This document shows positions 9,911 through 55,704 of a stretch of 64,000 nucleotides of DNA, piece after piece; the first letter of the stretch is position 1; each line of letters starts with the position of its first letter. The stretch comes from Mycobacterium seoulense (lineage in GTDB: Bacteria; Actinomycetota; Actinomycetes; Mycobacteriales; Mycobacteriaceae), in contig NZ_AP022582.1 in NCBI RefSeq assembly GCF_010731595.1, positions 2,542,001 to 2,606,000 of the forward strand, in the 5' to 3' direction. Below the pieces are notes generated by a model. It saw only the letters and a list, made by a program, of their open reading frames with translations, made no database searches and was not told where the DNA came from. The position numbers and the translations under genes were made by a program.

Positions 9911-9959
9911 TACGGTAAAGTAACTTTCCGACTATTACGTAACACTAACGTAACTTACC
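9911..9959. promoter_or_regulatory. Cluster of GTAA/TTAC palindromes upstream of the SnoaL-MaoC unit
   Basis: Within 49 bases are TACGGTAA (9911-9918), AAAGTAACTTT (9917-9927), TTACGTAA (9935-9942), TAACGTAA (9946-9953) and GTAACTTAC (9950-9958). The TACGGTAA 8-mer also occurs upstream of four other units here, or six counting the TACTGTAA form. The cluster overlaps the last codons of the acyl-CoA synthetase gene and lies 50-100 bases before the SnoaL start. Confidence 0.6.
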
Positions 9960-11541
9960 GGCGAACGGTATATCCCTGAGCTTCACGATCCCAAGCCTCC
10001 CGGGTCACCCCCCGCGCGCGCAATAAATCTTTGCGTATCCGCCCGACGGCATTCTTCGGAAGTTCGCTGACGGTCTCCACGAACCGCGGCACACAGAAGT
10101 ACGGCATCCGGGCGGCGCAGAAATCGAGCAGGTCGGTGTAATCCATTGTGGCTCCGGGCCGCAACGTCACGACCACCAGGATGTCGTCTTCGCCCAGCGG
10201 GCTGGGCACCCCTACCGCGGCCGCTTCGGCCACCGCGGGATGGCGCATGACGACGGTTTCCAATTCGACCGAGGAGACGTTTTCGCCGCGCCGGCGTAAC
10301 GAATCTTTCGTCCGGTCGACGTAGGTCAGATTCCCCGCGCTGTCGAGCCGGCCGAGATCGCCCGTGCGAAACCATTCCTGGTGGGGAATCACGTGCAACT
10401 CGGAGTCGACGTACCCTTCGCTCATCACATGCGGGTACCGGGGCCGGCAGGCGATCTCGCCGACCGCGCCGACGGGCAGCGGCTCGCCACCTTCGTCGAC
10501 GATCCGCACGTCGAAATTCGGATTCGGCCGGCCGGATGTCCCGGGCACCCCGTCGTCGGCCAGGGCCTTGACGGCGATCGGGAACGCCTCGGTCATTCCG
10601 TACATCGTGACAATGCGGCAACCGTAACGCTTTTCGATGGCGCGATAGGCGCCGGCGTCGATCGGCGCCGCAGAGATGAACCGCAACGGCAGCTGCGCAT
10701 CACGCGGGTCCGCGGGCAGGTTCTGCAGCATCGACACCATCGCGCCGGCGCCGGCGAAGCCGACGGCGCCGCGGGCGCGGATGTCGTCCCACACCTCGTC
10801 CGGGTGAAAAGCCGGCGCCAGCACGGTCGTCGCGCCGAGCAGCATCGGGGCCAGCACGCTGGGGGCCGCGCTGAGGTGGAACAGCGGCATCGCCGTCCAC
10901 AGCACCTCCCCTGCGCCCAATTCCCATGCCGACGCGACCGTCGCGGCCACCGTGAACAGGTAATGCCAGGTCGTGGCAACCGCTTTCGATGGCCCGGTGG
11001 TGCCCGACGTGTAGAAGAGACAGCCCACCTCCCCCGCCCCGGCGGCGGTATCGGCCACGGGCGGGCCGGTGCCTGGGCTCGACGCCGAATCGAGTGAATC
11101 ACCCTGCAACACCACGCTGGGCACGATGTCCAACGCTTCGGCGACCTCGGCGACCCGGGAACGGCGCTCGGCATCGGTCAGGACCACCTTGGCCCGCGAC
11201 AGCCGCAGGGCGTGCAGCAGGAAGTCCCCCTTGTTGGCGGCATTGACCGCCGCGCTCACCGCGCCCAGGCGCGCCGCGCCCAGCCAGAAGTAGACCCAGT
11301 CGGGGCAGGTTCCGGTGAACAAGGCCACGCCATCGCCGCGGCCGACGCCCAACTCCGACAACATGTTCGCCGCGGCGCAGGACCGCCGCCGCATCTGTTC
11401 GAAGGTCACGTCGACGCCGGCTATCGACATCATCACCCGGTCGGGATGCTGTTGGGCGCGCCGATCGAGCACCGCCGCCACGGTGAAACTGTCGACGCCG
11501 AAGTCGGCGGGCCCGGGAGGTCCGCTCCGGTCGGGGCGCAT
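9955..11541 (-). CDS. Acyl-CoA synthetase (AMP-binding, FadD-like)
   Basis: This 528-residue ANL-superfamily ligase activates a carboxylic acid as acyl-AMP and then acyl-CoA. The P-loop-like motif is LFYTSGTTGPSKA, the A5 motif MYGMTEAF, the hinge region WFRTGDLGRLDSAGNLTYVD, and the C-terminal lysine loop ELPKNAVGRIRKDLL. It lies downstream of the KshA-like Rieske gene on the same strand with a 21-base gap, so the two probably form one operon. Substrate specificity is not predictable. Confidence 0.92.
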   Translation of the reverse strand: MRPDRSGPPGPADFGVDSFTVAAVLDRRAQQHPDRVMMSIAGVDVTFEQMRRRSCAAANMLSELGVGRGDGVALFTGTCPDWVYFWLGAARLGAVSAAVNAANKGDFLLHALRLSRAKVVLTDAERRSRVAEVAEALDIVPSVVLQGDSLDSASSPGTGPPVADTAAGAGEVGCLFYTSGTTGPSKAVATTWHYLFTVAATVASAWELGAGEVLWTAMPLFHLSAAPSVLAPMLLGATTVLAPAFHPDEVWDDIRARGAVGFAGAGAMVSMLQNLPADPRDAQLPLRFISAAPIDAGAYRAIEKRYGCRIVTMYGMTEAFPIAVKALADDGVPGTSGRPNPNFDVRIVDEGGEPLPVGAVGEIACRPRYPHVMSEGYVDSELHVIPHQEWFRTGDLGRLDSAGNLTYVDRTKDSLRRRGENVSSVELETVVMRHPAVAEAAAVGVPSPLGEDDILVVVTLRPGATMDYTDLLDFCAARMPYFCVPRFVETVSELPKNAVGRIRKDLLRARGVTREAWDREAQGYTVRR

Positions 11542-11562
11542 CAGGCTTCCAGCGGCTTACGC

Positions 11563-12690: not shown

Positions 12691-12769
12691 GAGCTCTCCA
12701 TATCCCGCCCAAGGCGAGCCGAGCCCGGGCCGCCCTGCACTCACCAAAGGTTCGACGACAAGGTCTATT

Positions 12770-12780
12770 TTTACTATTTT
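12770..12780. promoter_or_regulatory. AT-rich promoter element TTTACTATTTT
   Basis: This 11-mer lies in the 143-base divergent gap between the Rieske oxygenase and the P450. The same 11-mer recurs at 19203-19213 upstream of the acyl-CoA dehydrogenase operon. TACTAT inside it fits the mycobacterial -10 pattern TANNNT, so it may be a promoter, an operator or both. Confidence 0.4.
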
Positions 12781-12833
12781 AAGCATAGAACGTCAACGCG
12801 GCGCTAACGCGTCCTAGTAGAGCGGGATATCGC

Positions 12834-14257: not shown

Positions 14258-14275
14258 CAGATGCCCTCCACTTCT

Positions 14276-16675: not shown

Positions 16676-16705
16676 CCGCCCTCCCGATCGGCGCGCGATC
16701 GAAGA

Positions 16706-16736
16706 AGCTATTTATACCATTACTGCTAAAATAGCT
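16706..16736. promoter_or_regulatory. AGCTATTT-N15-AAATAGCT dyad between CoA transferase and GntR genes
   Basis: Eight-base perfect inverted arms are at 16706-16713 and 16729-16736 in the 92-base divergent gap. The site is a natural autoregulatory operator for the GntR protein, although its arms are further apart than in a classic FadR-type site. Confidence 0.55.
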
Positions 16737-25559: not shown

Positions 25560-26588
25560 ATGGGCGACCCTGACGACGACGTCGACGTGACTCGCGGCGA
25601 CCGCTTCATCAAGACCGCTGTCGAGATCTTGGGCGAGACGGGACGCACCGACTTCACCGTGCAGGAGGTCGTCACCCGTTCCAAGACGTCGCTGCGCGCC
25701 TTCTATCAGCATTTCAGCAGCAAGGACGAGTTGCTGCTGGCCCTGTTCGACCGGACCATCGCGCAATCGGTGAACGGCTGGCGCACCGAAACCGACGGCC
25801 TGGACAGCACTGCGGCGCTGAAGCTGGTGATCGACCGCATCAGCCAGCAACCGGAATCGAGCACCCAAGACAGCCTCAATCGCGCCCTGTCTCTCTACAA
25901 CCAACACCTGGCCGAGACACGTCCCCGCGACTACGCCCGGGTGCTCTCGCCCTTGCATCGACTGATTCGCGACATCGTGGGGCAGGGCATCACCGAGGGT
26001 GTCTTCAACCCGGGGGTGGACGTCGGGGCGGCCGCTGCCATCGTCATGCAGACGGTCATGGGGGCACAGCGGTTGCATTGGCTGGGAACGGAATTGAACG
26101 GAGCGCCCCTCGACGGCGGCCAACTGTATGACTTCTGCAGCCGCGCCCTGGGCATCCGGGAAGGCGACGAAGAACCCGGCACGCCGTCGCTGGCCGAGCT
26201 GTTCGCCCAGATCGGTATGCGGCCCGGAACCCGCGACGGCGAATTCGCGATGACGATGCCGGTCAGCCCGGCCGTCGTCAACACTTCCGGCGCGCTGCAG
26301 GGCGGCCTGATCGCGACGCTCGTCGACGTCGCGGGCGGGCAGTTCGGGCTGGACTACCTGCAGCCGGACACCACGATGACGACGGCGGACCTCTTCATTC
26401 GTTACCTGCGCCCGATCCGGCAGGGCTCGGCGTTCGCGGTGCCCCGGATGCTGCGATCCGGGCGGCGGGCGATGGTGATGCAGGTAGACATCTACGGTGA
26501 CGGCGACGACGAGCTCGTCGCGACTGCGACCGTCAACTTCGCCGTCATCAACGGAGAGACGCCGACTGGCCTCAGCGGGACCTCCTGA
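25560..26588 (+). CDS. TetR regulator fused to a PaaI-like hotdog thioesterase domain
   Basis: The 342 residues make two domains. Residues 1-200 are a TetR repressor with the helix-turn-helix TVQEVVTRSKTSLRAFYQHF and a ligand/dimer region. Residues about 215-332 are a hotdog fold of the PaaI thioesterase family (GALQGGLIATLVDVAGGQFG, then FIRYLRPIRQGSAFAVPRML). The usual HGG of active members is QGG (Q247) while D256 is present, so the domain may bind an acyl-CoA rather than cleave it. The start is ATG at 25560. The amidohydrolase follows 84 bases downstream, with a 19-bp palindrome between. Confidence 0.9.
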   Translation: MGDPDDDVDVTRGDRFIKTAVEILGETGRTDFTVQEVVTRSKTSLRAFYQHFSSKDELLLALFDRTIAQSVNGWRTETDGLDSTAALKLVIDRISQQPESSTQDSLNRALSLYNQHLAETRPRDYARVLSPLHRLIRDIVGQGITEGVFNPGVDVGAAAAIVMQTVMGAQRLHWLGTELNGAPLDGGQLYDFCSRALGIREGDEEPGTPSLAELFAQIGMRPGTRDGEFAMTMPVSPAVVNTSGALQGGLIATLVDVAGGQFGLDYLQPDTTMTTADLFIRYLRPIRQGSAFAVPRMLRSGRRAMVMQVDIYGDGDDELVATATVNFAVINGETPTGLSGTS

Positions 26589-30899: not shown

Positions 30900-34116
<3,217 letters not shown>

Positions 34117-34120
<4 letters not shown>

Positions 34121-35308: not shown

Positions 35309-35325
35309 TACGGTAAGAGATACCG
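35309..35325. promoter_or_regulatory. TACGGTAA motif with CGGTA-N5-TACCG dyad upstream of the ACAD pair
   Basis: TACGGTAA occupies 35309-35316, and the inverted half TACCG is at 35321-35325. It is 50 bases before the ACAD start at 35259, between that gene and the esterase-fold gene. The same 8-mer occurs upstream of several other island operons. Confidence 0.55.
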
Positions 35326-35352
35326 GAGTCGCGTCGGTAGCTCTGCCGACCG

Positions 35353-38656: not shown

Positions 38657-39012
38657 GCGGTCAGGTACACCTCCCCCTCGGCGACCTCGACCTGGTAGGT
38701 GCGGATGCGCCGGGTCGGATCGGCGACGCTCTGTCCGGTGGTGATATCGAATTCCCAGTTGTGCCAAGGGCATCGGACGATCTGCCCGTCGCGGACCCGC
38801 CGCAGCCCGCCGGGTTCGTCCGGGGCGAACTCGTTGGTGCCACCGATCAGACCGAGGCACAGCGGGGCGCCCTCGTGAGAGCAGTAGTTCACGATCGCGT
38901 AGAACTCGCCGCGCACGTTGTACACGCCGACCCCGAACTTCCCGACGTCGACCAGCTTCATCCCGCCGGGCGGCAGATCGTCCAGCGAGCACACCAATCG
39001 CCGTTCGGGCAT
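38653..39012 (-). CDS. Rieske-type ferredoxin
   Basis: This 119-residue single-domain Rieske protein has ligands C44-x-H46 (YCSHEGAP) and C81-x2-H84 (CPWHNWEF). It would carry electrons to an oxygenase of the island, or act as a Rieske subunit bound to the co-encoded amidohydrolases. I chose ATG at 39012; GTG at 39021 is also possible, with GGGAGG just before it. It is the first gene of the minus-strand unit and is divergent from a P450. Confidence 0.9.
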   Translation of the reverse strand: MPERRLVCSLDDLPPGGMKLVDVGKFGVGVYNVRGEFYAIVNYCSHEGAPLCLGLIGGTNEFAPDEPGGLRRVRDGQIVRCPWHNWEFDITTGQSVADPTRRIRTYQVEVAEGEVYLTA

Positions 39013-39057
39013 TCGCCTCACCGCCTCCCGACGCCACGCAACCTCAATACTGAGCCC

Positions 39058-39068
39058 GTTACGGTAAC
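39058..39068. promoter_or_regulatory. GTTACGGTAAC palindrome upstream of the Rieske ferredoxin unit
   Basis: This 11-base palindrome contains TACGGTAA (39060-39067) and lies 46 bases before the ferredoxin start. It is one member of the recurring TACnGTAA group. Confidence 0.5.
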
Positions 39069-39163: not shown

Positions 39164-40390
39164 ATGACGCTCAGCACCGACCCCGCCAACCAGCCCGTCA
39201 CGCTCGACCTCACCGGAGAAACCAGCCCCTACCCGTTCTTCGAATACATGAGGCGCACGGACCCGGTTTGGCACGGCGCTCTGGCGGACCACTCGCAGAT
39301 GCCTGAAGAGCTGCGGCCGGGCGACGAGTGGGTGTTGTTCGGTTACGACCCGGTGTTCCAGGCGTTCCGCGACGACCGCATCTTCAGCTCCCACAAGTAC
39401 GACGAGACCATCGGTTTGGTGATGGGACACACCATCCTGGCGATGGGCGGAAAGGAACACCACGATCACCGCAACCTGGTGGCCAAGGCCTTCCGCGCGA
39501 CCGCGCTGGAACGCTGGGAGCCGTCGGTGATCGGACCGGTCTGCGATCGACTGGTTGACGAGATCAAGAACGACGGCCACGCCGACCTGGTCAAGGCGGT
39601 GACGTTCGAATTCCCCACCAGGATCATCTCCACGCTGCTCGGTTTGCCCCCCGAGGATCTCGACTTATTCCGGCGGCTATCCCTCGATCTCATCTCGATC
39701 CCGACCGACATCATGGCGGGGCTGAACGCGGCGGCGGAGTTGCACGGCTACTTCCTCGAACAGGTCGAGCAGCGGCGGCGCAAGCACACCGACGACATCA
39801 TCGGGGACCTGGTCGCGGCCGAGATCGACGGGGAGAAGCTCACCGACGAGGCCATCATTGCGTTTCTGCGGCTGCTGCTGCCCGCAGGACTGGAAACCAC
39901 CTACCGCTCGTCGGGCAACCTGCTGTACCTGCTGCTGACCCACCCCGAGCAGCTCGACCTCGTCTACCGGGACCGGTCGCTGATACCGATGGCGATCGAG
40001 GAGGGCCTGCGCTTCGAAACGCCACTGACGATGGTCATGCGGACCACGACCGAAGAGGTCGAAATCGGCGGCAAGACAATCCCGGCCGATGCCCAGATCG
40101 ACATGTGCATGGGCTCGGCCAACCGCGACGAGACCCGCTGGACCGACCCCAACACCTTCGACATCCGCCGGCCGCGGCAAGCGCACATCGCGTTCGCCGG
40201 CGGTATTCACATGTGCCTCGGCATGCATCTGGCCCGGCTCGAGACGCGGGTCATGCTGAACAGCCTCTTCGACCGCGTCACAGATCTGGCCTTCGTGGCC
40301 GACGACGGAACGGGCCAGGAATCGAAGATCGTCGGGCTGACGTTCCGCTCCCCCAACAAGCTTCCGGTCACGTTCGCCCCGGCGGCATGA
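39164..40390 (+). CDS. Cytochrome P450
   Basis: The 408 residues have the I-helix motif LLPAGLETTYRSSGN (Glu in the usual acidic position), ExxR as EEGLR, and the heme loop FAGGIHMCLGMHLAR with C351. A close paralogue lies at 55746 with the same PAGLETTYRSSGN segment. The RBS AGGAGGAG is at 39151-39158, which fixes the start at 39164. The stop overlaps the alcohol dehydrogenase start (ATGA), so hydroxylation and alcohol oxidation are probably consecutive steps. Confidence 0.94.
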   Translation: MTLSTDPANQPVTLDLTGETSPYPFFEYMRRTDPVWHGALADHSQMPEELRPGDEWVLFGYDPVFQAFRDDRIFSSHKYDETIGLVMGHTILAMGGKEHHDHRNLVAKAFRATALERWEPSVIGPVCDRLVDEIKNDGHADLVKAVTFEFPTRIISTLLGLPPEDLDLFRRLSLDLISIPTDIMAGLNAAAELHGYFLEQVEQRRRKHTDDIIGDLVAAEIDGEKLTDEAIIAFLRLLLPAGLETTYRSSGNLLYLLLTHPEQLDLVYRDRSLIPMAIEEGLRFETPLTMVMRTTTEEVEIGGKTIPADAQIDMCMGSANRDETRWTDPNTFDIRRPRQAHIAFAGGIHMCLGMHLARLETRVMLNSLFDRVTDLAFVADDGTGQESKIVGLTFRSPNKLPVTFAPAA

Positions 40391-41544
40391 GAAGCCGCGC
40401 GGCGCTCCTGCACGACGTCGGCGGCCCCTGGTCGGTCGAGGAATTCGAACTCGACCCGCCCCGTGCCGGCGAAGTCCTGGTCGAGATGGCGGCGGCCGGG
40501 CTGTGTCACTCCGACGACCACATCCTCAAAGGTGACATGTCGGCGCCCAACGAGGTGATGCGATCCCTCGGCCTGCCGACCATGTTCCCGATGATCGGCG
40601 GCCATGAGGGCTCCGGGATCGTGCGGCAAGTCGGCGACGGGGTAACGGATTTCGCCCCCGGCGACCACGTGGTGATGTCGTTCGTCGCGGTGTGCGGCCA
40701 GTGCCGCTGGTGTGCCACCGGCATGGAATACATCTGCGATGTCGGCGCTTTCACCCTGACACCGGGGATGCCCACCGACGGCACTTTTCGTCATCACACC
40801 GCCGACGGCCGGCCGCTCGGACATCTGGCCAAGGTCGGGGCGTTCGCCGAACACACCGTGGTGTCGACGAATTCACTGGTGAAGATCGAGCCGCACCTGC
40901 CTCTGGCGCCGAGCGCGTTGCTGTCGTGCGCTATTCCAACCGGCTACGGTTCGGCCGCCAATCGCGCCGGCGTGCGCGGCGGCGACACGGTGGTCGTCGT
41001 AGGCGTGGGCGGAATCGGTACGGGGGCGATCCAGGGCGCGCGGATCAGCGGTGCCGCACAGATCGTCGCGGTGGACCCGGTGGACTTCAAGCAGAAATCG
41101 GCGTTGCAGTTCGGCGCGACCCACAGCGCCGCCACGATCGCCGAGGCGCAGGACTTGGTGCGGGACTTGACATACGGCGTGATGGCCGACGCCGTGGTGG
41201 TCTCACCATCGCTGATCACCGCCGACGACGTCCGCGACGCGCTGAAGCTGACCCGCAAGGGCGGGACATGCGTCCTCACCGGCATGACCTCGCAACTGAC
41301 CCACTCGGTGAAGATCGACCTGCAGGAGTTCATCCTGATGAACAAGACGCTGGCGGGGACGATATTCGGCTCGTGCAACCCGCGGGCGGACATCGCCCGG
41401 CTGGCCAGGCTTTACCAGACCGGGCAGCTCCAGCTCGACGAAATGATCACCCGGCGCTACCGCCTCGAGGAGATCAACGATGCCTACGACGACCTCCGCA
41501 ACGGCAAGATCATCCGGGGCATCATCGATTTCGGGGTCAGCTGA
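40387..41544 (+). CDS. Zinc-dependent (NDMA-type) alcohol dehydrogenase
   Basis: The 385-residue medium-chain dehydrogenase has the catalytic zinc ligand in GLCHSDDH, the GGHEGSGIV segment, the structural zinc loop CGQCRWCATGMEYIC, and the Rossmann motif VVGVGGIGTGAIQGA. The overall layout resembles NDMA-dependent and mycothiol-associated alcohol dehydrogenases of actinobacteria. It is coupled to the P450 upstream (ATGA) and probably oxidises the alcohol made by it. It overlaps the convergent SDR gene by 8 bases. Confidence 0.92.
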   Translation: MRSRAALLHDVGGPWSVEEFELDPPRAGEVLVEMAAAGLCHSDDHILKGDMSAPNEVMRSLGLPTMFPMIGGHEGSGIVRQVGDGVTDFAPGDHVVMSFVAVCGQCRWCATGMEYICDVGAFTLTPGMPTDGTFRHHTADGRPLGHLAKVGAFAEHTVVSTNSLVKIEPHLPLAPSALLSCAIPTGYGSAANRAGVRGGDTVVVVGVGGIGTGAIQGARISGAAQIVAVDPVDFKQKSALQFGATHSAATIAEAQDLVRDLTYGVMADAVVVSPSLITADDVRDALKLTRKGGTCVLTGMTSQLTHSVKIDLQEFILMNKTLAGTIFGSCNPRADIARLARLYQTGQLQLDEMITRRYRLEEINDAYDDLRNGKIIRGIIDFGVS

Positions 41545-45906: not shown

Positions 45907-45921
45907 GGTAACTTTACCGTA
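45907..45921. promoter_or_regulatory. GGTAA-CT-TTACC palindrome with TACGGTAA (minus strand)
   Basis: The palindrome is at 45907-45918, and TTACCGTA (reverse of TACGGTAA) at 45914-45921. It overlaps the probable core promoter of the LLM-P450 unit, a few bases from its start codon, as expected for a repressor site. Confidence 0.55.
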
Positions 45922-45988
45922 AGCGATCCAGTATGTGACCCCACGGATCCGCTCGCGTGACGAATCTTCCATGAGGTAGGACATAGGC

Positions 45989-47485
45989 ATGCCGAAATCC
46001 CAGGACTGGGGAGAAACGCTCGACGATCTCGCGCGGCGCCGTCGGCGCGCGAGCGAGATGGGCGGGCCGGAGCGGCTCGACAAGCACCGCGGCAAGGGCA
46101 AGCTCGACGCCCGCGCGCGCATCGACCGGCTGCTCGACCCTGGCTCCTTCCGGGAAATCGGCACCCTGGTGGGGGGCCAGGTTGCGGCCGACGGGATCGT
46201 CGTCGGCTCCGGTTTGATCAACGGCTCGCCGGTGATGCTGGGCGCCGAGGACTTCACCACGATGGCCGGCAGCATCGGCCCAGGCGGCAACTCGAAGCGC
46301 TACCGCATCGCCGAACTCGCCCTGCGGGACAAGGTTCCCCTGGTGATGCTGCTCGAAGGTGCCGGCTTTCGTCCTGGCGGTGGGCATTACGGCCGCACCC
46401 CAACCGACCTGCTCGCCCAGGCGCAGTGCTCGGGCCGGGTACCGACCGTCGCCGCCGTCCTCGGCCCCTCGGCCGGACATGGCGCCCTGGTCGCCCCGGT
46501 CTGCGACTTCCGGATCATGAGCAGACAGGGCGCGATCTTCACCGCCGGGCCGCCGGTCGTCAAAGAGTCTACGGGCGAGGACATTTCGAAGGAGGACCTC
46601 GGCGGACCCGTCACCGCCGTTCCGAGCGGGGTGATCCACAACGTCGCCGAGGACGACGAAGCCGTGATCGCCGATATTCGGCGGTACCTGTCGTATTTCC
46701 CGCCGAGCGCGTGGTCATACCCGGCGCCGCTGCCGCCGGACGCGGACAGCGAGCCACGTGCGACGCCCGAACTGCTCGACATCGTCTCCCGCGACAACCG
46801 CCGCGTCTACGACATGCGCGCCGTGCTCGACGTGGTCTTCGACCGGCCCGACTGGTTCGAAGTCCAGCCGCAGTACGGCAAGGCGATCATTTGCGCGTTG
46901 GCGCATCTCGGCGGCCACCCGGTCGCGGTCGTCGCGAACCAGCCCAACGTGCTCGCGGGCTCCATCGACGCCGACGCGGCGGACAAAGCGGCACATTTCA
47001 TCATGGTGGCCGACTCGTTCCACCTGCCCATCGTGTTCCTTGCGGACAACCCGGGCATGCTGCCCGGCAGTCGGTCCGAGCGCAGCGGCGTGCTGCGCGC
47101 CGGTGCGCGGATGTTCGCCGCGCAGACGGCGGCGACCACGGTCAAGTTGCACGTCACGCTGCGCAAGGCATACGGATTCGGCTCCATGGTCATGTCGCTC
47201 TTGGGTTTCGATCACCAGAGCGCGACGTTCGCATACCCGGGAGCGACCATGGGCGCCATGAGTGCGGCCGCGCTGGGCCGGGCGACGCACGCCGGTGAGG
47301 ACATCACCGCGAAGCTGCGTGACGCCGAGTTGCAGGCGTCCTATCGCTCGGCCGAACATCTGGGATTCGACGAACTCATTGACCCCCGCGAAACCCGTGA
47401 TGCCTTACTCGGTTCACTACTTCGCGGACTGTCCAGCCGGCAGGCCGCCGCCGAACCGGTGACCCGTACCGTCATCATGCCCTGA
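45989..47485 (+). CDS. Acyl-CoA carboxylase carboxyltransferase (beta) subunit
   Basis: The 498-residue crotonase-fold carboxyltransferase shows the two oxyanion regions, EGAGFRPGGGHYGRT in the N-half and FLADNPGMLPGS in the C-half, plus AYGFGSMVMSLLGFDHQ. It would carboxylate or transcarboxylate an acyl-CoA (acetyl-, propionyl-, methylcrotonyl-like), using a biotinylated alpha subunit encoded elsewhere. The start is ATG at 45989. It is divergent from the LLM-P450 unit and convergent with the next LLM gene, with a 6-base gap. Confidence 0.9.
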   Translation: MPKSQDWGETLDDLARRRRRASEMGGPERLDKHRGKGKLDARARIDRLLDPGSFREIGTLVGGQVAADGIVVGSGLINGSPVMLGAEDFTTMAGSIGPGGNSKRYRIAELALRDKVPLVMLLEGAGFRPGGGHYGRTPTDLLAQAQCSGRVPTVAAVLGPSAGHGALVAPVCDFRIMSRQGAIFTAGPPVVKESTGEDISKEDLGGPVTAVPSGVIHNVAEDDEAVIADIRRYLSYFPPSAWSYPAPLPPDADSEPRATPELLDIVSRDNRRVYDMRAVLDVVFDRPDWFEVQPQYGKAIICALAHLGGHPVAVVANQPNVLAGSIDADAADKAAHFIMVADSFHLPIVFLADNPGMLPGSRSERSGVLRAGARMFAAQTAATTVKLHVTLRKAYGFGSMVMSLLGFDHQSATFAYPGATMGAMSAAALGRATHAGEDITAKLRDAELQASYRSAEHLGFDELIDPRETRDALLGSLLRGLSSRQAAAEPVTRTVIMP

Positions 47486-47491: not shown

Positions 47492-48535
47492 CTAATCCCC
47501 CGCCCGATAAGCCGCGATCACGGGCTCTAGTTCGTCCGGTGTCGCGCCGTGCATGATCACCGCATCGGCCCCGTAGTCGAATTCCTTGCGGACGCGCTCG
47601 GCGCATTGGCGGGCCGACCCGGTCGCCGACGGCTCCAGCCACTCCTCGGGGATCAACGTCGCGATGTGCTCGATCTGCTCGGCCGTGCCCTTGTGGTCGA
47701 TCCCTCCCGCGATCGACGTCACCACCGGGTCCTCCCGGAAGCGTTGCAGCACAGCCGGATCCCAGTTATTCGTCCGCACCATCAGGTCGCCGTAACCCTG
47801 CAGGTAGGTGGCCAGGCGGGCGACCGTCTTCTTCAGCCGCAACTCCTCGGGGAGGTGGTCACCGACAGTGGCGAAGCACGACCACACCCGGACGCTGTCC
47901 GGGTCGCGGCCGGCCTTCTCCGCCGCGGATTTGACGGTCTTGACGCAGCGCTGCAGCGTCTCGGGGGTGAAGTAGGTGTGCAAGATGACGTCGTCGAAAA
48001 CCCGGCCCCCGAGGTCGAGGGTCCTGGGCCCGAAAGCCACCAGCGCCAGCCGGATGTCCTCGTTGAAGTCCGGGTCCAGGAACAGGATCGGGTACTTGCC
48101 CATCGGTCCGTCGTGGTTGAAGATCAGCTCGCCGTGCCAGAGGCGGCGCATGACCTGGGCCCAGTCCTCCATCTGCGCGGTCGTGACCGCGGGTATGCCG
48201 AACGCCCCGTAGATCGCCGCGATACCCCGGCCGATCCCCAGTGTGAAGCGCCCGCCGGAGAGCCGGTGCATTGTGGTGGCCCACGACCCCGTGATCAGCG
48301 GGTGGCGGGTGTTGTGATTGGTTGCGGCGGTGGCGATCTGCATCCGGGTCGTCACCGCGCATGCGGCCCCCGTCAGCGACGACGCTTCTTTGACGTTCCA
48401 GCGCTCGGAGATGAACGCGGTGCCGAAGCCCAGCTCCTCGCCGCGGCGGGCCTCGCCGATCAGTGTTGCCGGGCCCTCACCGCCGGCACCGGCCAACAGG
48501 TAGTAGCCCAACTCATCGAGAGTGCGATCGCTCAA
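47492..48535 (-). CDS. LLM-class oxidoreductase (TIGR03857-like F420 group)
   Basis: The 347-residue LLM-family barrel shows ARRGEELGFGTAFISERWNV, the strand SGGRFTLGIGRGIA and the C-terminal YGADAVIMHGATPDEL. I place it loosely in the F420-dependent group by its general pattern. The start is TTG at 48535, overlapping the stop of the SnoaL-like gene (TTGA) with GGAG just upstream. It belongs to the unit BVMO, hydrolase, SnoaL, LLM. Confidence 0.85.
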   Translation of the reverse strand: MSDRTLDELGYYLLAGAGGEGPATLIGEARRGEELGFGTAFISERWNVKEASSLTGAACAVTTRMQIATAATNHNTRHPLITGSWATTMHRLSGGRFTLGIGRGIAAIYGAFGIPAVTTAQMEDWAQVMRRLWHGELIFNHDGPMGKYPILFLDPDFNEDIRLALVAFGPRTLDLGGRVFDDVILHTYFTPETLQRCVKTVKSAAEKAGRDPDSVRVWSCFATVGDHLPEELRLKKTVARLATYLQGYGDLMVRTNNWDPAVLQRFREDPVVTSIAGGIDHKGTAEQIEHIATLIPEEWLEPSATGSARQCAERVRKEFDYGADAVIMHGATPDELEPVIAAYRAGD

Positions 48536-48912
48536 CTCCAAACTCCTTGCTGGTAGCCGCAATTCCAGACCTCCGCGATCTTCCCGTCGACGACGCGGAA
48601 CACCTCGATGCTGGCGACATTTGTCTCGGTGCCGTCTTTGGCGGTCATCGACGAGTCGTAGACGATCGCGACGTGCTCGCCGTCGTCGCCGGCGGCGACG
48701 ATGTTCAGATCGAAGCGCAACGTGTCGAACATCGCCCACACGTCCCTCACCCGGCTGATCGCCTGCTCGCGGGTCAGGGTGTGCGCCTCGCCTACCCCGT
48801 GCCGAATTACCTTGTCGGCGAACAACTCCTCGGCCAGGGTCAGGTTGCGCTCGTTCCAGACGACCAGGTTGTAGAGCTCGACCACCTCGCGTGCCGTGCG
48901 CGGGGCTGCCAT
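48532..48912 (-). CDS. SnoaL/NTF2-like protein
   Basis: The 126-residue cone-fold protein has VVELYNLVVWNERNLTLAEE at the start and VFRVVDGKIAEVWNCGYQ at the end, the usual layout of SnoaL-like cyclases and isomerases. Its ATG at 48912 shares one base with the stop of the alpha/beta-hydrolase gene (TGATG). It probably acts with the BVMO and hydrolase on a ring compound; the reaction is unknown. Confidence 0.83.
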   Translation of the reverse strand: MAAPRTAREVVELYNLVVWNERNLTLAEELFADKVIRHGVGEAHTLTREQAISRVRDVWAMFDTLRFDLNIVAAGDDGEHVAIVYDSSMTAKDGTETNVASIEVFRVVDGKIAEVWNCGYQQGVWS

Positions 48913-50030
48913 CAGCCGGCCACTTCGCGCAGGAATCGGTCGGTCACGTTTTGCACCCGCCGGGAGAAGATGTGTCCCACGTGGCTGCCGTCGTACCAGT
49001 AAAGCTGGCCGCCCCAGCGCTCCTGCAACTCAACCGTGGGATCACGCATCGCCATCCGGTCGTGCCAGGCACCGACGATGAGCCGGCGATGCGGCGGCGG
49101 CGCCGGATCCACCCGCAATGGATCGATCACCGAGGTCAGCTTGGCCACCTGCGGCGAGGCCAGCAGGTCGCGGAATTCGTCCCGCGACGATCCCCAGCGC
49201 CCCAGGTGCCGCGCGATCATCGCATTCAGCCCGAGGATCGGCGTATACAGCGCCACCGCATCGATCTGCCTTTCCAGGTGCGAAACCAGCGCCGCGACCG
49301 GAGTCCCCATCGAAACCCCGGCTACCACAATCGCACTCGCCTGTGGTTGTGCCCACCGCACCACGGCGCGGATCTCCGACACCGACCGCATCATGCCGGC
49401 GACGTTGCCCAAGGGGTCCATGTCGGGGTAGGCAGGCCATTCCCGGCGCCGGCAGCCGTGACCGGGCTGCACCGGCAATGCGACGTTGAATCCCAACTGA
49501 CGATGTATCCGGCCGATCCGGGTCAACAGCAGGTCTTCCGTGCCGCCCTGACCGGCGCCGTGCACCCAGATGAGCCACGGTCTCGGCCCGTCGGTGTGCC
49601 GGCACAGGTGCACCACCGCCCTCGCCGGTCCGCCCAGGCCCTCGGCTTCCAGCGTCTCCGGCAACGCCGGATCGTGCTCGAACGCCATCCGCTCGTACGC
49701 CAGATTGCCGATGCGGCGCCGCCGAACCGAGGTAGGGCGCAGCGGCATCGGGTCCCTGTGCGCACGGTCGATGCCCAGGGTGGACAACTCCTCTGCCGCG
49801 GCCGTGCAGCCAGACAGCGGCCGCATCGCCGCCGGGCTGCCGCCGAGCAGCGAAAAACCGCTCAGCACAAGCTCGTCCAGCATGACCTCGCCGAACTGGC
49901 GCACGCCACGCGGTGATACCGGAGCCCAGCCGGTGGATTCGTTCAGACCGGCCACCGTCCGGGGTAACAACTTGCCAAGTTCGCGGGTCGCTTCCTTGGC
50001 GAGTCCCAGCCCGCGCGTCACCTTCGACAT
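48912..50030 (-). CDS. Alpha/beta-hydrolase
   Basis: The 372-residue protein has the oxyanion segment LIWVHGAGQGG, the nucleophile elbow GVSMG, an acid in WHDRMA and a late His in DGSHVGHIF, so the triad appears complete. The N-terminal 120 residues form an extra helical region. Coming directly after a Baeyer-Villiger-type gene, it is a good candidate to hydrolyse the ester or lactone that enzyme makes. The start is ATG at 50030 or GTG at 50039; the RBS-like GGTGGAGGG overlaps both. Confidence 0.85.
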   Translation of the reverse strand: MSKVTRGLGLAKEATRELGKLLPRTVAGLNESTGWAPVSPRGVRQFGEVMLDELVLSGFSLLGGSPAAMRPLSGCTAAAEELSTLGIDRAHRDPMPLRPTSVRRRRIGNLAYERMAFEHDPALPETLEAEGLGGPARAVVHLCRHTDGPRPWLIWVHGAGQGGTEDLLLTRIGRIHRQLGFNVALPVQPGHGCRRREWPAYPDMDPLGNVAGMMRSVSEIRAVVRWAQPQASAIVVAGVSMGTPVAALVSHLERQIDAVALYTPILGLNAMIARHLGRWGSSRDEFRDLLASPQVAKLTSVIDPLRVDPAPPPHRRLIVGAWHDRMAMRDPTVELQERWGGQLYWYDGSHVGHIFSRRVQNVTDRFLREVAG

Positions 50031-50039
50031 GCCCTCCAC

Positions 50040-51665
50040 CTAAGCGAGCTTGAAACCGGTGTATCCGTCGGCCGCGACTTCGTCGCAGCGGCGCCGATAT
50101 TCGGGGATCCCGCCGGTATAGCCCATGTACATTCGCTTCTTCCCGGGCACGTTGCCGCCGTTGTACCACGAGTTGCAGGACGGGTGGACCAGCACCGTCG
50201 GCGCGACGAGCGCGGTGGCGTGGTCGATCCACTCCTGTTGTGCGGTGGCCAGCGCCTCGATCGTGCGGATACCGCGGGCCCGCAGGTGTGCGATGCAATC
50301 ACCGATCCACTCCACATGCTGTTCCAGCGCGGCGACGAAGTTGGTGGCGGCGCTGGGGCTGCCCGGCCCCTGGATGGTGAAGAGGTTCGGGAAGCCCGCC
50401 ACCGCCAACCCAAGATAGGACAGCGGACCCTCGCTCGCCCAGAACTCGGCGAGCGACATCCCATCGCGGCCGCGCACGTCGATGCGGCTCAGCGCCCCCG
50501 TCATCGCGTCGAACCCCGTGGCGTACACAATGACATCCAGGTCGTAGGAGCCGCCCTCGGTGCGGATTCCGCCCGGCGTCACCTCCCGGATCGGCGACTT
50601 GCGCAGGTCGACGAGGGTGACGTTGTCCCGGTTGAACGTCTCGTAGTAGCCCTGGTCGATGATCGGCCGTTTGCAGGCGAACGGATGGACGGGCACCAGC
50701 GAGGCCGCCGTTTCCGGGTCCTTGACGATGCGGGCCACCGCCTCGCCATACAATTCGGCGGCCATTCGGTTGGCCTCGATGTCGAAGAAGACGTCGCCCC
50801 AGTTGAGCGCGCCCATGACGCCGTGCTCCTCGATGGCACGCAACTGCTCGTCGCGCGTGGCCGACTTCAGCGGCGGCCTGCCCAGCATCTCCAGCAGTAC
50901 CGAGAAGGCGCTCAGCCGCGCCGCCCCGATCGGGTGGGCCCGTTGCGCGGCGCGGATTTCGCCGTAGCGGGCCTTCATCCCGTCCAGCTCGCCGGCCTCG
51001 AACCGGCGCACGCGCCACGGCAGGGTGTAAGCGGGCGAACGTTGGAACACGCAGAGCCGCAACGCTTGCCGGGCCACGATGGGAATGAGCTGAACGCCGG
51101 TGGAACCTGTCCCGATGACGCCGACCCGCTTACCGGTCAGGTCGAAGCCCTCCTTGGGCCAGTGGCTGGTGTACAGCGACGTCCCGGTGAAGGTGTCCAT
51201 GCCCGGGATGTCGGGCTGCAACGGAACGGACAGGATGCCGGATGCGGCGACGACGAACGGGGCCCGGAAAGTTTCGCCGCCCTCGGTTCGGACCAGCCAG
51301 GCCGCGGCGTCCTCGTCGAAGGTCATGGCGACGACCTTGGTGTGGAACTGGATGTCGCGGCGAAGGTCGAGCCGGTCGGCGACGAAGTTCAGGTAGGCCT
51401 CGATCTCCGGCTGGGCCGGCATCGACTCGGTCCAAACCCATTCCTGCTGAATCTCTTCGGAGAAGCTGTAGGAGTATTCGATGCTCTCGATGTCGCAGCG
51501 GGCACCCGGGTATCGGTTGTACCACCACGTGCCGCCGACGTTTTCGGCCATCTCCAGGACACGGGTCCGGATGCCCAATTGGCGCAGCCGATGCAGCATG
51601 TACAGCCCTGAGAAGCCGGCGCCGATGACGATGACGTCGATCCGGGTATCAGCCGCTTCAGTCAC
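50040..51665 (-). CDS. Baeyer-Villiger-type flavin monooxygenase
   Basis: The 541 residues have two nucleotide-binding motifs, VIGAGFSGLYMLHRL (FAD) and VGVIGTGSTGVQLIP (NADPH), and between them the BVMO fingerprint in the form F159-T-G161-TSL-Y165-TSH-W169-P170. The consensus has His where Y165 stands. It would insert oxygen next to a ketone to give an ester or lactone. The start is GTG at 51665 with AAGGAG about 5 bases upstream. It is first in the minus-strand unit and divergent from the Rieske oxygenase. Confidence 0.9.
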   Translation of the reverse strand: MTEAADTRIDVIVIGAGFSGLYMLHRLRQLGIRTRVLEMAENVGGTWWYNRYPGARCDIESIEYSYSFSEEIQQEWVWTESMPAQPEIEAYLNFVADRLDLRRDIQFHTKVVAMTFDEDAAAWLVRTEGGETFRAPFVVAASGILSVPLQPDIPGMDTFTGTSLYTSHWPKEGFDLTGKRVGVIGTGSTGVQLIPIVARQALRLCVFQRSPAYTLPWRVRRFEAGELDGMKARYGEIRAAQRAHPIGAARLSAFSVLLEMLGRPPLKSATRDEQLRAIEEHGVMGALNWGDVFFDIEANRMAAELYGEAVARIVKDPETAASLVPVHPFACKRPIIDQGYYETFNRDNVTLVDLRKSPIREVTPGGIRTEGGSYDLDVIVYATGFDAMTGALSRIDVRGRDGMSLAEFWASEGPLSYLGLAVAGFPNLFTIQGPGSPSAATNFVAALEQHVEWIGDCIAHLRARGIRTIEALATAQQEWIDHATALVAPTVLVHPSCNSWYNGGNVPGKKRMYMGYTGGIPEYRRRCDEVAADGYTGFKLA

Positions 51666-51703
51666 TTCACTCCTTGCCGTGCACGGGCCGGACTGCTGAA
51701 ATC

Positions 51704-51725
51704 TATACTGTAACGGACTTAGTAT
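51704..51725. promoter_or_regulatory. TACTGTAA motif and ATACT/AGTAT dyad in the BVMO-Rieske divergent promoter
   Basis: TATACT at 51704-51709 is a good -10 element for the plus-strand Rieske gene. TACTGTAA is at 51706-51713, and the inverted half AGTAT at 51721-51725 pairs with ATACT at 51705-51709. The spacing of the TACTGTAA half to its diverged partner (3 bases) matches the site at 55677. Confidence 0.5.
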
Positions 51726-51746
51726 CAGGCAATCGGAGGCTTCACT

Positions 51747-52751
51747 TTGAAAGTGCCCTTCACCTGGAAGGTCACCGGGTGGTTCATGGTCGGGTGGTCT
51801 CCCGAGTTTCCCGCCGGCGAGGTCCGGCCGCTGCACTACTTCGGTGAGGACTTGGTCGCCTACCGCGACGCGTCCGGGCAGCTACACGTGCTGGAAGCGC
51901 ACTGCAAACACCTCGGCGCCCACATCGGCCACGGCGGCAAGGTGCTGGGCGACTGCGTCGAGTGCCCGTTCCACGGCTGGCGCTGGGGCCCCGACGGCAC
52001 CAACCGGTACATCCCCTACCAACCCGACCGGCCCAACCGCGCGCTGCGGCTGCGGGTGTACCCGGTGCGCGAGCAGTACGACTGCGTGTTCATCTGGCAC
52101 CAACCGGAAGGCAAGGAGCCGCAGTGGGAGATGCCGGACATCTTCCGGAAGTTTCCGCAGTTCGAGACCGACCCCGCGGCCTACTACCGCGCGTATCCGG
52201 AGTTCTCCCGGCGCGCCGAGCGCGAACCGGTGCATCCACAGATCGTCGCGGAGAACGCCCCCGACAGCGCCCATTTCGAATACGTGCACCACGCCACCGT
52301 GACCCCGCGGGTGCTGGACTGGAAGATCGTCGACCACGAGTGGCAGTTCGTCGCGGGATGGCCCGACGCGCGCAGCGGCAACCCCGAGGATCTCGCGTTA
52401 CGGTTCCACAGCCACCTGTTCGGCCTGGGCGGGGCCATCAGCGTCTTCGAGGGAGCACAGAACCATCGGCTGATCTTCACCTGCACGCCGGTCGACGACG
52501 AGTGCTCGGACCTCTTCTACTCCATCTGGTGGCCCCGGGTCCCCGGCGACACCGCGGACGTACCGCACGGCAAGCTACGCGACGTGATCGAAAAGCAGTT
52601 CCTGTCCACCGTCTTCGACGATCTGCAGATCTGGCGCTACCAGAAGTACGTCGAAAACCCGGCGCTTTCCAAAGTTGACGCGAAAGGCTATATGGCACTG
52701 CGAAAGTGGGCGAAGCAGTTCTATGACGTCCCGCCGGCAGTACCGGCATGA
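51747..52751 (+). CDS. Rieske oxygenase (KshA-like)
   Basis: The 334-residue oxygenase has ligands C53-x-H55 (HCKHLGAHIG) and C73-x2-H76 (CPFHGWRW), and the mononuclear iron site ENAPDSAHFEYVHHA. It resembles the KshA-like gene at 11563 but is shorter. The start is TTG at 51747, chosen because GGAGG at 51735-51739 has ideal 7-base spacing to it. Its stop overlaps the next gene (ATGA). It heads the plus-strand unit of isochorismatase-fold protein, hotdog protein and acyl-CoA synthetase. Confidence 0.9.
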   Translation: MKVPFTWKVTGWFMVGWSPEFPAGEVRPLHYFGEDLVAYRDASGQLHVLEAHCKHLGAHIGHGGKVLGDCVECPFHGWRWGPDGTNRYIPYQPDRPNRALRLRVYPVREQYDCVFIWHQPEGKEPQWEMPDIFRKFPQFETDPAAYYRAYPEFSRRAEREPVHPQIVAENAPDSAHFEYVHHATVTPRVLDWKIVDHEWQFVAGWPDARSGNPEDLALRFHSHLFGLGGAISVFEGAQNHRLIFTCTPVDDECSDLFYSIWWPRVPGDTADVPHGKLRDVIEKQFLSTVFDDLQIWRYQKYVENPALSKVDAKGYMALRKWAKQFYDVPPAVPA

Positions 52752-53368
52752 CACCGACCCTTGCCGAAATCGCGGCGCCCCAGCACACCGCGATCGTCAC
52801 GCAGGAGTGCCAGGGGGCGGTCATCGGTCCCGACGCGGGGCTGGCGATGTTGGCCGAGGAGGCCCGGCGGGTCGCGCTGCCCAACATCGTCCGGCTCTTG
52901 CCGGCGGCCCGGGCGGCCGGGGTACGCGTCGTGCACTGCCTGGTACAGCGGCGGCCCGACGGGCTGGGCTCCAACCACAACGCCAAGATCTTCGCCATGG
53001 GACACGGTCAGGTCGACATCACGCCGGGCACCCCGGGGGCGGCCGTGCTACCCGAATTAGGTCCCGAGCCAGGCGATCTGGCGCTGAGCCGCTGGCACGG
53101 CGTCGGGCCGATGGGCGGCACCGACCTGGACGCGGTACTGCGGAATCTCGGCGTGTCCACCATCGTTGTCGTCGGGGTGTCGCTGAACATCGCCATCCCC
53201 AATGTCGTGATGGACGCGGTCAACGCCGCCTACCGCGTGATCGTTCCCCGGGACGCCGTTGCCGGCATACCTACCGAGTACGGAGAGGCCATCATCGCCA
53301 ACACCCTGTCGCTGCTCGCGACCATCACCACCACCGACGAGTTGCTCAGCGCGTGGACGCGGCCATGA
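52748..53368 (+). CDS. Isochorismatase-fold protein with altered active site
   Basis: The 206 residues have the cysteine-hydrolase/isochorismatase fold, with MGGTDLDAVLRNLGVSTIVV as the most conserved part. The position of the catalytic Cys (normally GVATNVC) is Ala 149 in GVSLNIAIPNV, the N-terminal Asp appears as Glu 20 (TQECQGA), and the usual Lys is not evident. True isochorismatases also lack the Cys, so some activity cannot be excluded. The start ATG at 52748 overlaps the Rieske stop, and its end overlaps the hotdog gene. Confidence 0.8.
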   Translation: MTPTLAEIAAPQHTAIVTQECQGAVIGPDAGLAMLAEEARRVALPNIVRLLPAARAAGVRVVHCLVQRRPDGLGSNHNAKIFAMGHGQVDITPGTPGAAVLPELGPEPGDLALSRWHGVGPMGGTDLDAVLRNLGVSTIVVVGVSLNIAIPNVVMDAVNAAYRVIVPRDAVAGIPTEYGEAIIANTLSLLATITTTDELLSAWTRP

Positions 53369-53985
53369 CCGACACCGCTCCCGGGGTTCGCGGCGGATTC
53401 CCCGATATCAAGCCGGCCGAACACGCGCCGCCCGGGTTGGGCCGATTCGTCACCGCGATGCGCCGCCTGCAGGATCTGACCCTCGCCAGTAATCCGGACA
53501 GCTCGGCGTGGACGGCCGCGGCCCGGCACGTCGAAGACGCCTGCGCACTACTGGACGGCCACCAGGTGCCCGAGGGCATGGCGCCGGCCGGCCGCGTCAT
53601 CGAACTGCCCGGCCTGGGCCACCCCCTGCTCCCGCCGTGGACCGTTACGGAATCCGGGCCGACTGGCGTCACCATGGCGGGACACTTCACCCGCTCGCAT
53701 GTCGGCGGAAACAACGCCGTGCACGGCGGAATGATCCCGCTGTTCTACGACTGGCTGTTCGGGATGGTGGTCTCTACTGCCGGCACTCCCCCCACCCGCA
53801 CCGCCTACCTGCATGTCGACTACCGAAACATCACCCCGATCGACGAGCCGCTAACCGCCCACGGCCACATCACCGAAATCGACGGCAGGAAGATCTTCAT
53901 CTCGGCTACGATGACGGCCGCTGATGGCACGCTGCTCAGCGAAGCCAACGGCCTGATGGTCCGACTGCTCCCCCACCAGCCATGA
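53365..53985 (+). CDS. PaaI-type hotdog thioesterase-like protein
   Basis: The 206-residue protein has about 90 N-terminal residues before a hotdog domain (HVGGNNAVHGGMIPLFYDWL, then AYLHVDYRNITPIDEPLTAH). The NxxxHGG motif and downstream Asp are intact, as in active thioesterases. It may release CoA from a pathway intermediate. The start ATG at 53365 overlaps the previous stop (ATGA). Confidence 0.85.
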   Translation: MTDTAPGVRGGFPDIKPAEHAPPGLGRFVTAMRRLQDLTLASNPDSSAWTAAARHVEDACALLDGHQVPEGMAPAGRVIELPGLGHPLLPPWTVTESGPTGVTMAGHFTRSHVGGNNAVHGGMIPLFYDWLFGMVVSTAGTPPTRTAYLHVDYRNITPIDEPLTAHGHITEIDGRKIFISATMTAADGTLLSEANGLMVRLLPHQP

Positions 53986-53993
53986 GAGGCCTG

Positions 53994-55646
53994 ATGTCCG
54001 ACACAGCAACACAATTCACGGTGCCCGCTGTCGCGGCGGCCGTTGCGTCCGCGATTCCCGATCGGGAGCTGCTGATTCAGGGCGGACGGCGGTACAGCTA
54101 CGCACAGGTGCTCGAGCGGTCGCACCGCCTCGCCGCTTACCTGCATTCCCGTGGACTCGGGTGCCGCACCGAACGCTCCGCGCTCGCCGGCCACGAGGCG
54201 GGCCAAGACCTGCTCGGCATCTACGCCTACAACGGCAACGAATTCGTCGAGTCGTTGCTGGGCTCGTTCCAGGCCCGGGTTGCCCCCTTCAACGTCAACT
54301 TCCGCTACGTCAAGAGCGAGCTGCAGTATCTGTTGGCGGATGCGGGGGCAACCGCGCTGATCTACCACGCCGCATTCGCGCCTCGGGTGGCCGAAATCCT
54401 GCCGGACCTCCCCCAATTGCGGGTGCTGATTCAGATCGCCGACGACTCGGGCAACGACCTGATCTACGGCGCAGTCGATTACGAGAGCGTCATCGCATCC
54501 TGCGCGCCGGAGCCACCACCGGTGCAGCATTCACCGGACGACCTGTACGTCCTGTACACCGGCGGCACCACGGGAATGCCGAAAGGCGTGCTGTGGCGCC
54601 AGCATGACATCTTCATGACGTCCTTCGGCGGACGCAACCTGATGACCGGCGAGCCGTTCGGGTCCGTCGAGGACATCGCGGCCGGCGTGGTCGGGGGCCC
54701 CGGCACCAAGCTGATGATCCTGCCGCCGCTGATGCACGGTGCGGCCCAGTGGAGCGTGATGACGGCGATCACGACCGGACAATCCGTCGTCTTCCCGTCG
54801 GTCGTCGATCGTCTGGACGCCGACGAGGTCGTCCGCACCATCGAGCGTGAGCGGGTGACCGTGGTGACGGTGGTGGGCGACGCGATGGCCCGCCCGTTGG
54901 TCACCGCCATCGAGAAGGGGATCGCGGACGTCTCGTCGTTGGCCGTGGTCGCCAACGGGGGCGCATTGCTCACCCCGTTCGTCAAGCAGCGCCTGATCGA
55001 GGTGCTGCCCAACGTCGTCGTCGTCGACGGTGTCGGATCGTCGGAGACCGGCGCGCAGATGCACCACATGTCCACGTCGGGGGCGGTGTCGACCGGCACC
55101 TTCAACGCGGGACCGGACACGTCCGTGGCGGCCGAGGATCTGAGCGCCATCCTGGAACCGGGCCATGACGGGATGGGCTGGTTGGCGCAGCGGGGTTACG
55201 TTCCGCTGGGCTACAAGGGCGATGCGGCCAAGACCGCCAAGACATTTCCTGTCATCGACGGGGTGAGGTATGCGATTCCCGGTGATCGGGCACGCCACCG
55301 CGCCGACGGCAGCATCGAACTGCTGGGCCGCGATTCGGTGACGATCAACTCGGGCGGCGAGAAGATCTTCGTCGAGGAGGTCGAGACCGCGATCGCGTCG
55401 CATCCCGCGGTGGCCGACGTGGTGGTCGCGGGGCGGCCCAGCGAACGATGGGGCCAGGAGGTGGTCGCCGTGGTCGCGCTGGCTCAGGGCGCCCACGCCG
55501 ACGCCGAGGAGTTGGTCGCACACGCCGGGCAGTCGTTGGCGCGCTACAAGCTTCCCAAGGCGATCGTGTTCCGCGCGGCAATCGAGCGCAGCCCGTCGGG
55601 CAAGGCCGACTACCGGTGGGCGCGCGAGCAGGCGGTGAACGGCTGA
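53994..55646 (+). CDS. Acyl-CoA synthetase (AMP-binding, FadD-like)
   Basis: The 550-residue ligase has the ATP motif LYTGGTTGMPKGVLW, VDGVGSSETGAQM, IPGDRARHRADGSIELLGRD, SGGEKIFVEEVE and the C-terminal SPSGKADYRWA. This layout resembles the FadD17/FadD19 group used in sterol side-chain breakdown, an impression without alignment. I chose ATG at 53994 (AGAGG 5 bases upstream); ATG at 53982 overlaps the previous stop as ATGA and is nearly as likely. The P450 unit follows after about 100 bases. Confidence 0.9.
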   Translation: MSDTATQFTVPAVAAAVASAIPDRELLIQGGRRYSYAQVLERSHRLAAYLHSRGLGCRTERSALAGHEAGQDLLGIYAYNGNEFVESLLGSFQARVAPFNVNFRYVKSELQYLLADAGATALIYHAAFAPRVAEILPDLPQLRVLIQIADDSGNDLIYGAVDYESVIASCAPEPPPVQHSPDDLYVLYTGGTTGMPKGVLWRQHDIFMTSFGGRNLMTGEPFGSVEDIAAGVVGGPGTKLMILPPLMHGAAQWSVMTAITTGQSVVFPSVVDRLDADEVVRTIERERVTVVTVVGDAMARPLVTAIEKGIADVSSLAVVANGGALLTPFVKQRLIEVLPNVVVVDGVGSSETGAQMHHMSTSGAVSTGTFNAGPDTSVAAEDLSAILEPGHDGMGWLAQRGYVPLGYKGDAAKTAKTFPVIDGVRYAIPGDRARHRADGSIELLGRDSVTINSGGEKIFVEEVETAIASHPAVADVVVAGRPSERWGQEVVAVVALAQGAHADAEELVAHAGQSLARYKLPKAIVFRAAIERSPSGKADYRWAREQAVNG

Positions 55647-55676
55647 CCGCGGAGCAATGCCCCCGCCCATATTGTC

Positions 55677-55704
55677 TACTGTAAGAATTACAGTACGATC
55701 GTAC
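55677..55704. promoter_or_regulatory. Perfect palindromes TACTGTAA-GAA-TTACAGTA and GTACGATCGTAC
   Basis: A 19-bp perfect palindrome at 55677-55695 runs directly into a 12-bp palindrome at 55693-55704, 42 bases before the P450 start. The half-site TACTGTAA belongs to the TACnGTAA group found upstream of five other units. This is the most symmetric member and the best reference site. Confidence 0.75.

Follow-up and report, generated by a model that had tools for sequence, protein, structure and literature searches.

Which signal recurs before the catabolic operons in a 64,000-base stretch of the Mycobacterium seoulense genome, and which protein might read it, is the question raised by this locus. 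The stretch, C1:2542001-2606000 of a genome of 5,531,300 bases in one contig and hereafter called the window, had been described in an earlier note as carrying the 8-mer TACnGTAA before six gene starts, as one regulon that a TetR protein encoded inside it might control. Comparison with relatives and with the genus makes it highly probable that the TACnGTAA sites, apart from the one at 9911, are 19-bp operators of a catabolic regulon, most likely bound by an autoregulated TetR-family repressor encoded at C1:2613792-2614589, to the right of the window. Positions without the prefix C1 are those of the window. Gene boundaries are approximate, since the gene calls come from a codon-usage script of our own; window proteins were assigned with Pfam, the LLM (luciferase-like monooxygenase) proteins also with NCBIfam, and MSMEG names are NCBIfam family names.

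The window holds six places that match the pattern TACNGTAA, with nine strand-matches in all where 0.49 are expected and none of 100 dinucleotide shuffles reaches nine; places are merged strand-matches, as symmetric sites count twice when strands are counted. The six coordinates reported earlier are all correct, and the abundance is indeed far above chance. In the whole genome 45 strand-matches, against 161 for the control, the pattern read backwards, merge to 37 places, and six of these fall in the window where 0.43 would be expected by length (binomial 4e-6). Each of the six precedes a start, as claimed, once the start of the LLM gene is re-assigned to the ATG at 45903-45901; the place at 45914 had been scored as in-gene because the first start call was too far upstream. 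The genome-wide test that the earlier note had proposed gave a divided answer, as 20 of the 37 places are found at most 150 bp upstream of a start, while 11 are in genes and six elsewhere (15, 10 and six, respectively, for the 31 places outside the window). Thus the bare 8-mer is frequently upstream of starts, yet not specific.

Five of the six places extend into a 19-bp dyad, TACnGTAA-N3-TTACnGTA, with a relaxed right arm, whereby the places at 39060 and 45914 fit better on the opposite strand (39066..39048, TACCGTAACGGGCTCAGTA; 45915-45933, TACCGTAAGCGATCCAGTA). The claim that most sites sit in inverted repeats thus stands for these five, which are arms of the dyad, and fails for 9911, which has no second arm; the site at 55677, described as a perfect 19-bp palindrome, is an 8-bp perfect inverted repeat around a non-symmetric 3-bp centre. 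The exact form TACYGTAA-N7-AGTA is present at four window sites (39048-39066 on the minus strand, 45915-45933, 51706-51724 and 55677-55695) and, searched as TACNGTAA-N7-AGTA, at five places in 5.53 Mb, the fifth being C1:683320 (binomial 9e-8 for four in the window). Near-matches of the dyad cluster 5-10 kb to the right of the window (window-equivalent positions 69157, 71642 and 74296). When ten operators of the genome are aligned, columns 1-3, 5, 6, 17 and 19 are invariant. Looser patterns are unspecific: TACNGTAN5TACNGTA with three mismatches gives 430 strand-matches against 2544 for the reversed control, and TACNGTAAN7AGTA with two mismatches 107 against 380. The putative operators and the genes that they adjoin are as follows.

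35309..35327, plus strand: putative operator TACGGTAAGAGATACCGGA, 50 bp upstream of the minus-strand acyl-CoA dehydrogenase pair 32876-35259
39048..39066, minus strand: putative operator TACCGTAACGGGCTCAGTA, between the Rieske ferredoxin/amidohydrolase operon (36462-39012, minus) and the cytochrome P450/zinc alcohol dehydrogenase genes (39164-41544, plus)
45915..45933, plus strand: putative operator TACCGTAAGCGATCCAGTA, between the LLM (TIGR03617)/P450 operon (minus, LLM start 45903) and a carboxyl-transferase gene (45989-47485, plus)
51706..51724, plus strand: putative operator TACTGTAACGGACTTAGTA, between the two divergent operons 47492-51665 (minus) and 51747-55646 (plus)
47492-51665, minus strand: operon for an FMO/BVMO-like (flavin/Baeyer-Villiger monooxygenase-like) enzyme, SnoaL and LLM, left of the 51706 site
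51747-55646, plus strand: operon for a KshA-like Rieske oxygenase, isochorismatase, thioesterase and CoA ligase, right of the 51706 site
55677..55695, plus strand: putative operator TACTGTAAGAATTACAGTA, the most symmetric site, upstream of the P450/CoA transferase III/thiolase operon 55746-59347
C1:2611157-2611175, C1:2613642-2613660 and C1:2616296-2616314: putative operators outside the window, near-matches of the dyad

Overlapping near-matches had hinted at one more half-site, 12 bp further left. It was discarded as too weak, the mean over eight own sites being 2.5 of 6 at offset -12, with 3.0, 2.5 and 2.9 at offsets -5, 5 and 17 and 0.5-2.1 at most others.

The dyad is preserved before orthologous genes. 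The genomes of 25 relatives hold 112 strand-matches of the motif, whereas the reversed control finds 17, and in the island stretches taken from seven of these genomes the individual sites can be followed gene by gene. Before the orthologue, a site with at most three mismatches from that of M. seoulense is found for 35309 in five of the six relatives with the gene in the stretch, and for 45915, 51706 and 55677 in all seven; with at most two mismatches, the 39048 site is found in five of seven relatives and the C1:2611157 site in six of six. The site at C1:2616296 is kept in the four relatives with that DNA. The LLM orthologue starts 12 bp from the site in 7/7 relatives, so that the LLM gene of the window probably starts at 45903. 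Equally, two operators stand far from the island. One, at C1:683320, lies 35 bp before an enoyl-CoA-hydratase-like gene, which has no match in five of the 25 genomes, and is found in 11 of 15 close orthologues (at least 82% identity) and in none of ten paralogues; the other, at C1:2215783, is upstream of a thiolase-like gene and is present in 16 of 21 close orthologues (at least 78% identity) and in none of four paralogues. Local duplication hardly accounts for these distant sites. Conservation upstream of orthologous operons, on which the earlier note had staked its proposal, hence holds for the five dyad sites and not for 9911 (0/25 relatives), and the single regulon holds in the same way for five of the six sites, through dyad, orthologous conservation and two distant copies, and not for the hydratase operon at 9911.

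The gene that most probably encodes the regulator is itself preceded by the dyad.

C1:2613792-2614589 (window-equivalent 71792-72589), 7.8 kb past the right edge of the window: candidate TetR-family regulator, 265 aa

It is divergent from a short-chain dehydrogenase/reductase (SDR) gene and lies 132 bp from the operator at C1:2613642 between them, an arrangement seen in M. seoulense and in all five relatives with both genes in the stretch, the site being identical in 5/5 relatives. A dyad in the promoter of the gene itself that also serves a divergent neighbour is typical of TetR-family regulators, though not universal. The protein has an N-terminal TetR_N helix-turn-helix domain (PF00440, E 9.8e-12, 44.9 bits against a cut-off of 24) and a C-terminal TetR_C_1 domain (PF02909, 42 bits against a cut-off of 21); its best match by sequence among solved structures is the tetracycline repressor class A (E 2.4e-15), and the AlphaFold model, with a mean pLDDT of 60, was not used. 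At residues 36-74, within the DNA-binding region and following it, 23 orthologues agree in nearly every position, which says little because these are at least 80% identical overall. Among the best 80 of 290 orthologue loci, taken from named Mycobacterium records, 78 have the operator upstream of the gene, between positions -67 and -249, and it differs from the symmetric pattern by one base in 77 loci and by two in one; that the site is kept while the distances vary is as expected of a footprint. No operator was found at the other two loci, L036 (M. lepraemurium) and L031; the latter has only some 21 bp of DNA before the gene. In another genus of the family, two orthologues with 69% identity (L239 and L240) have TACTGTATCGTTTACTGTA and TACTGTATCGTTTACAGTA upstream.

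A second TetR gene, C1:2524527-2525174, encodes a protein 57% identical to the candidate over 168 residues. Near it, at C1:2523321, TACAGTAA is found, preceded on its left by TATTGTC, a flank similar to the one at the 55677 site; this is possibly a duplicated regulator with a related operator.

Presence of the candidate TetR and presence of the motif coincide across the genus. Among 198 Mycobacterium genomes, drawn evenly and at least 90% complete with at most 5% contamination in 185 cases, the exact motif occurs in 149, and 159 have a TetR match at E <= 1e-20. Seven genomes with matches of E 1e-43 to 1e-58, most of them near the E-value of the paralogue, were set aside as distant homologues, and all seven are without the motif. 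With the remaining 152, both are present in 146 genomes, TetR only in six, the motif only in three and neither in 43, an agreement in 189 genomes and disagreement in nine (Fisher test, 3e-33, a value that overstates the case, as species of one genus are not independent). The co-occurrence is therefore support and not an independent probability.

The TetR protein inside the window, which the earlier note had singled out for footprinting, is a fusion, with a TetR domain at the N-terminus and a 4HBT thioesterase domain at the C-terminus (25560-26588, by Pfam). It would be unusual for a sensor to be joined to an acyl-CoA thioesterase. As the regulator of these sites the protein was judged unlikely: it is full-length or nearly so in 59 of the 198 genomes, 57 of them with the motif, which leaves 92 motif-bearing genomes without such a fusion, and the motif scans of the M. 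seoulense genome list no operator at its promoter. Some match to it exists in 144 genomes, in 85 of them to the TetR part only.

If the candidate TetR is the regulator, as we infer, a ligand-free dimer would occupy the operators and shut off the adjoining operons as well as its own gene; at least two operators overlap a likely -10 region or adjoin a start codon. Release of the repressor would be brought about by a pathway intermediate, perhaps an acyl-CoA. The regulon would comprise P450s, Rieske proteins, LLM oxidoreductases, the FMO/BVMO-like enzyme, acyl-CoA dehydrogenases, hydratases, CoA ligases, thiolases and a DapA-like protein, and would form a catabolic route of oxygenation followed by beta-oxidation, for which the mix of enzymes suggests a terpenoid- or steroid-like substrate. 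The Rieske ferredoxin operon holds two amidohydrolases (Pfam), and two LLM proteins score above the NCBIfam cut-off, namely TIGR03617 (F420_MSMEG_2256) and TIGR03857 (F420_MSMEG_2249). Right of the window, SDR, DapA-like protein, TetR and one hydratase are assigned by Pfam, and further hydratases, CoA ligases and amidohydrolases are named from a look at the sequence only.

Such a repressor is not the only way to account for the sites. TACnGT fits a mycobacterial -10 element, and the sites could be only -10 promoter hexamers (TAnnnT, for example TACTGT) with their surroundings and no operator, a choice that the earlier note had left open. In fact, half-sites can overlap a -10 hexamer, 20 of the 37 genomic places are within 150 bp upstream of starts, and the C1:2611157 promoter reads TTGTGG-17-TATACA. 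This explanation is nevertheless very unlikely, and the operator well supported at five sites, because a -10 element alone leaves paired arms 12 bp apart unexplained: both arms, at this fixed spacing, are kept across species before orthologous genes, where a single TAnnnT hexamer fails. The sites also occur on either strand and between divergent genes, co-occur tightly with one TetR, and have copies before distant genes and none before their paralogues. That the sites are copies of a repeat, multiplied as promoter DNA was duplicated inside the island, would agree with their clustering, but is the least credible of the alternatives and hardly to be expected, given that the flanks differ between sites (by eye) while each 19-mer is kept across species, and that members exist at C1:683320 and C1:2215783.

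On the other hand, the TetR protein might be an activator or a dual regulator rather than a simple repressor, as some TetR-family proteins activate and the distance from site to start varies widely. This is improbable, since the LLM site 12 bp from the start codon in 7/7 relatives and the C1:2611157 site, which fills the spacer between -35 and -10 and covers the -10, both suggest occlusion. Equally unlikely is a different regulator, be it the fusion in the window, a GntR-family protein (C1:2623795-2624484) or the TetR paralogue, all three of which are encoded in or near the island. The resemblance of the paralogue to the candidate and the overlap of fusion matches with motif-bearing genomes speak for it; against it stand the scarcity of the full-length or nearly full-length fusion and the lack of a listed site at its promoter, the absence of the motif from the seven genomes with distant homologues, and, in the motif scan of the M. 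seoulense genome, the lack of a listed site before the GntR gene.

Several observations weigh against a dyad operator bound by the candidate TetR and have to be set beside the above. The right arm is degenerate in several sites, and the reversed exact motif (TACNGTAA-N7-AGTA) also has two matches in the genome, so that single exact matches are not proof. The acyl-CoA dehydrogenase site is missing in numidiamassiliense and the 39048 site in interjectum and MFM001; four of the 15 hydratase and five of the 21 thiolase close orthologues are without the site. Six genomes have the TetR without the exact motif and three the motif without a close TetR, and M. lepraemurium keeps the TetR with no operator upstream. 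Outside the genus, dyads before ten TetR homologues (L238-L247) are free of mismatches in two (L239 and L240), with one mismatch in L247, a 41% homologue, two in L238, L244 and L245, and three or four in L241-L243 and L246. The paralogous TetR could share the operators. Furthermore, any match to the fusion (E <= 1e-60, often the TetR part only) also tracks the motif, with both present in 133 genomes, the protein only in 11, the motif only in 16 and neither in 38, which indicates that some of the association stems from shared ancestry or genome content; with nine disagreements against 27 for the fusion, the candidate TetR fits the motif distribution distinctly better.

One genome of 3.3 Mb (G100) has two strand-matches of the motif and no TetR match. 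Together with the TetR of M. lepraemurium without its operator, this is possibly regulon decay in reduced genomes.

A search of the open-licence literature found no description of the operator TACnGTAA-N3-TTACnGTA and no paper tied to its TetR. The KstR operator, TnnAACnnGTTnnA, is unlike the dyad described here, and KstR-type gene sets differ. KstR and KstR2 of cholesterol catabolism, as well as Mce3R, share with the candidate the TetR-type control of mycobacterial lipid or steroid catabolic genes (PMC4482099, PMC3920632, PMC4881515). BkaR (Rv2506/MSMEG_4718) resembles it as an autoregulated mycobacterial TetR-type repressor with a palindromic operator at its own promoter and operators at nearby and distant catabolic genes, whereas its core, GTTA(N)T(N4)A(N)TAAC, and its genes are different (PMC3920632). 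The BkaR core is not matched by the ten operators of M. seoulense (by eye). In a survey of mycobacterial TetR proteins, palindromic operators are likewise predicted upstream of divergent TetR genes (BMC Genomics 2015, PMC4482099); its table names M. tuberculosis genes, and the operator described here may overlap with one of its 11 motifs. With the tetracycline repressor TetR the candidate has the common TetR_N and TetR_C_1 domains; it differs in scoring far under the cut-off of the respective NCBIfam model (75 of 265 bits) and in its catabolic context.

With slightly more doubt than trust, we would suggest a so far undescribed genus-wide TetR regulon, KstR-like in kind, for the oxidation and beta-oxidation of a polycyclic or terpenoid-like substrate. 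It might be old: in most mycobacteria the operators are retained at rearranged operons and at distant genes, and the TetR gene also has one in its upstream DNA in at least one further genus of the family. With a candidate regulator and an exact operator, the orphan oxygenases, LLM enzymes and genes of beta-oxidation can be tested as one unit, and as 149 of 198 genomes carry the operator, the members of the regulon can be listed for each species. Knowing the inducing compound would indicate a substrate to whose use these bacteria are adapted.

The site at 9911..9918 (plus strand, TACGGTAA), upstream of the SnoaL/FAS1-DH/MaoC operon (8441-9860, minus), was rejected as an operator of the regulon and is a look-alike, as the 120 bp preceding the orthologue lack TACNGTAA in all 25 relatives. 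In L154, L156 and L157, all close relatives, the sequence reads TTACCGTTAC in place of the TTACCGTAC of M. seoulense, and this difference makes the look-alike. The same promoter has a distinct element.

9939..9954, minus strand: GTTACGTTAGTGTTAC, direct repeat GTTAC-N6-GTTAC, GlnR-box-like

With at most one mismatch, GTTAC-N6-GTTAC is found in M. seoulense and 14 of the 25 relatives, and 11 are without it. The repeat resembles the Streptomyces venezuelae GlnR box, but the same source gives the M. smegmatis box as t/gTAAC-n6-Gc/aAAC (PMC10704036). It may tie the 8441-9860 operon to nitrogen control or to another response regulator.

At its left edge (1-3138 and the left flank) the window adjoins a 3,077-aa fas-looking gene and an Rv2525c-like gene, where the names fas and acpS are presumed from the gene order of M. 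tuberculosis.

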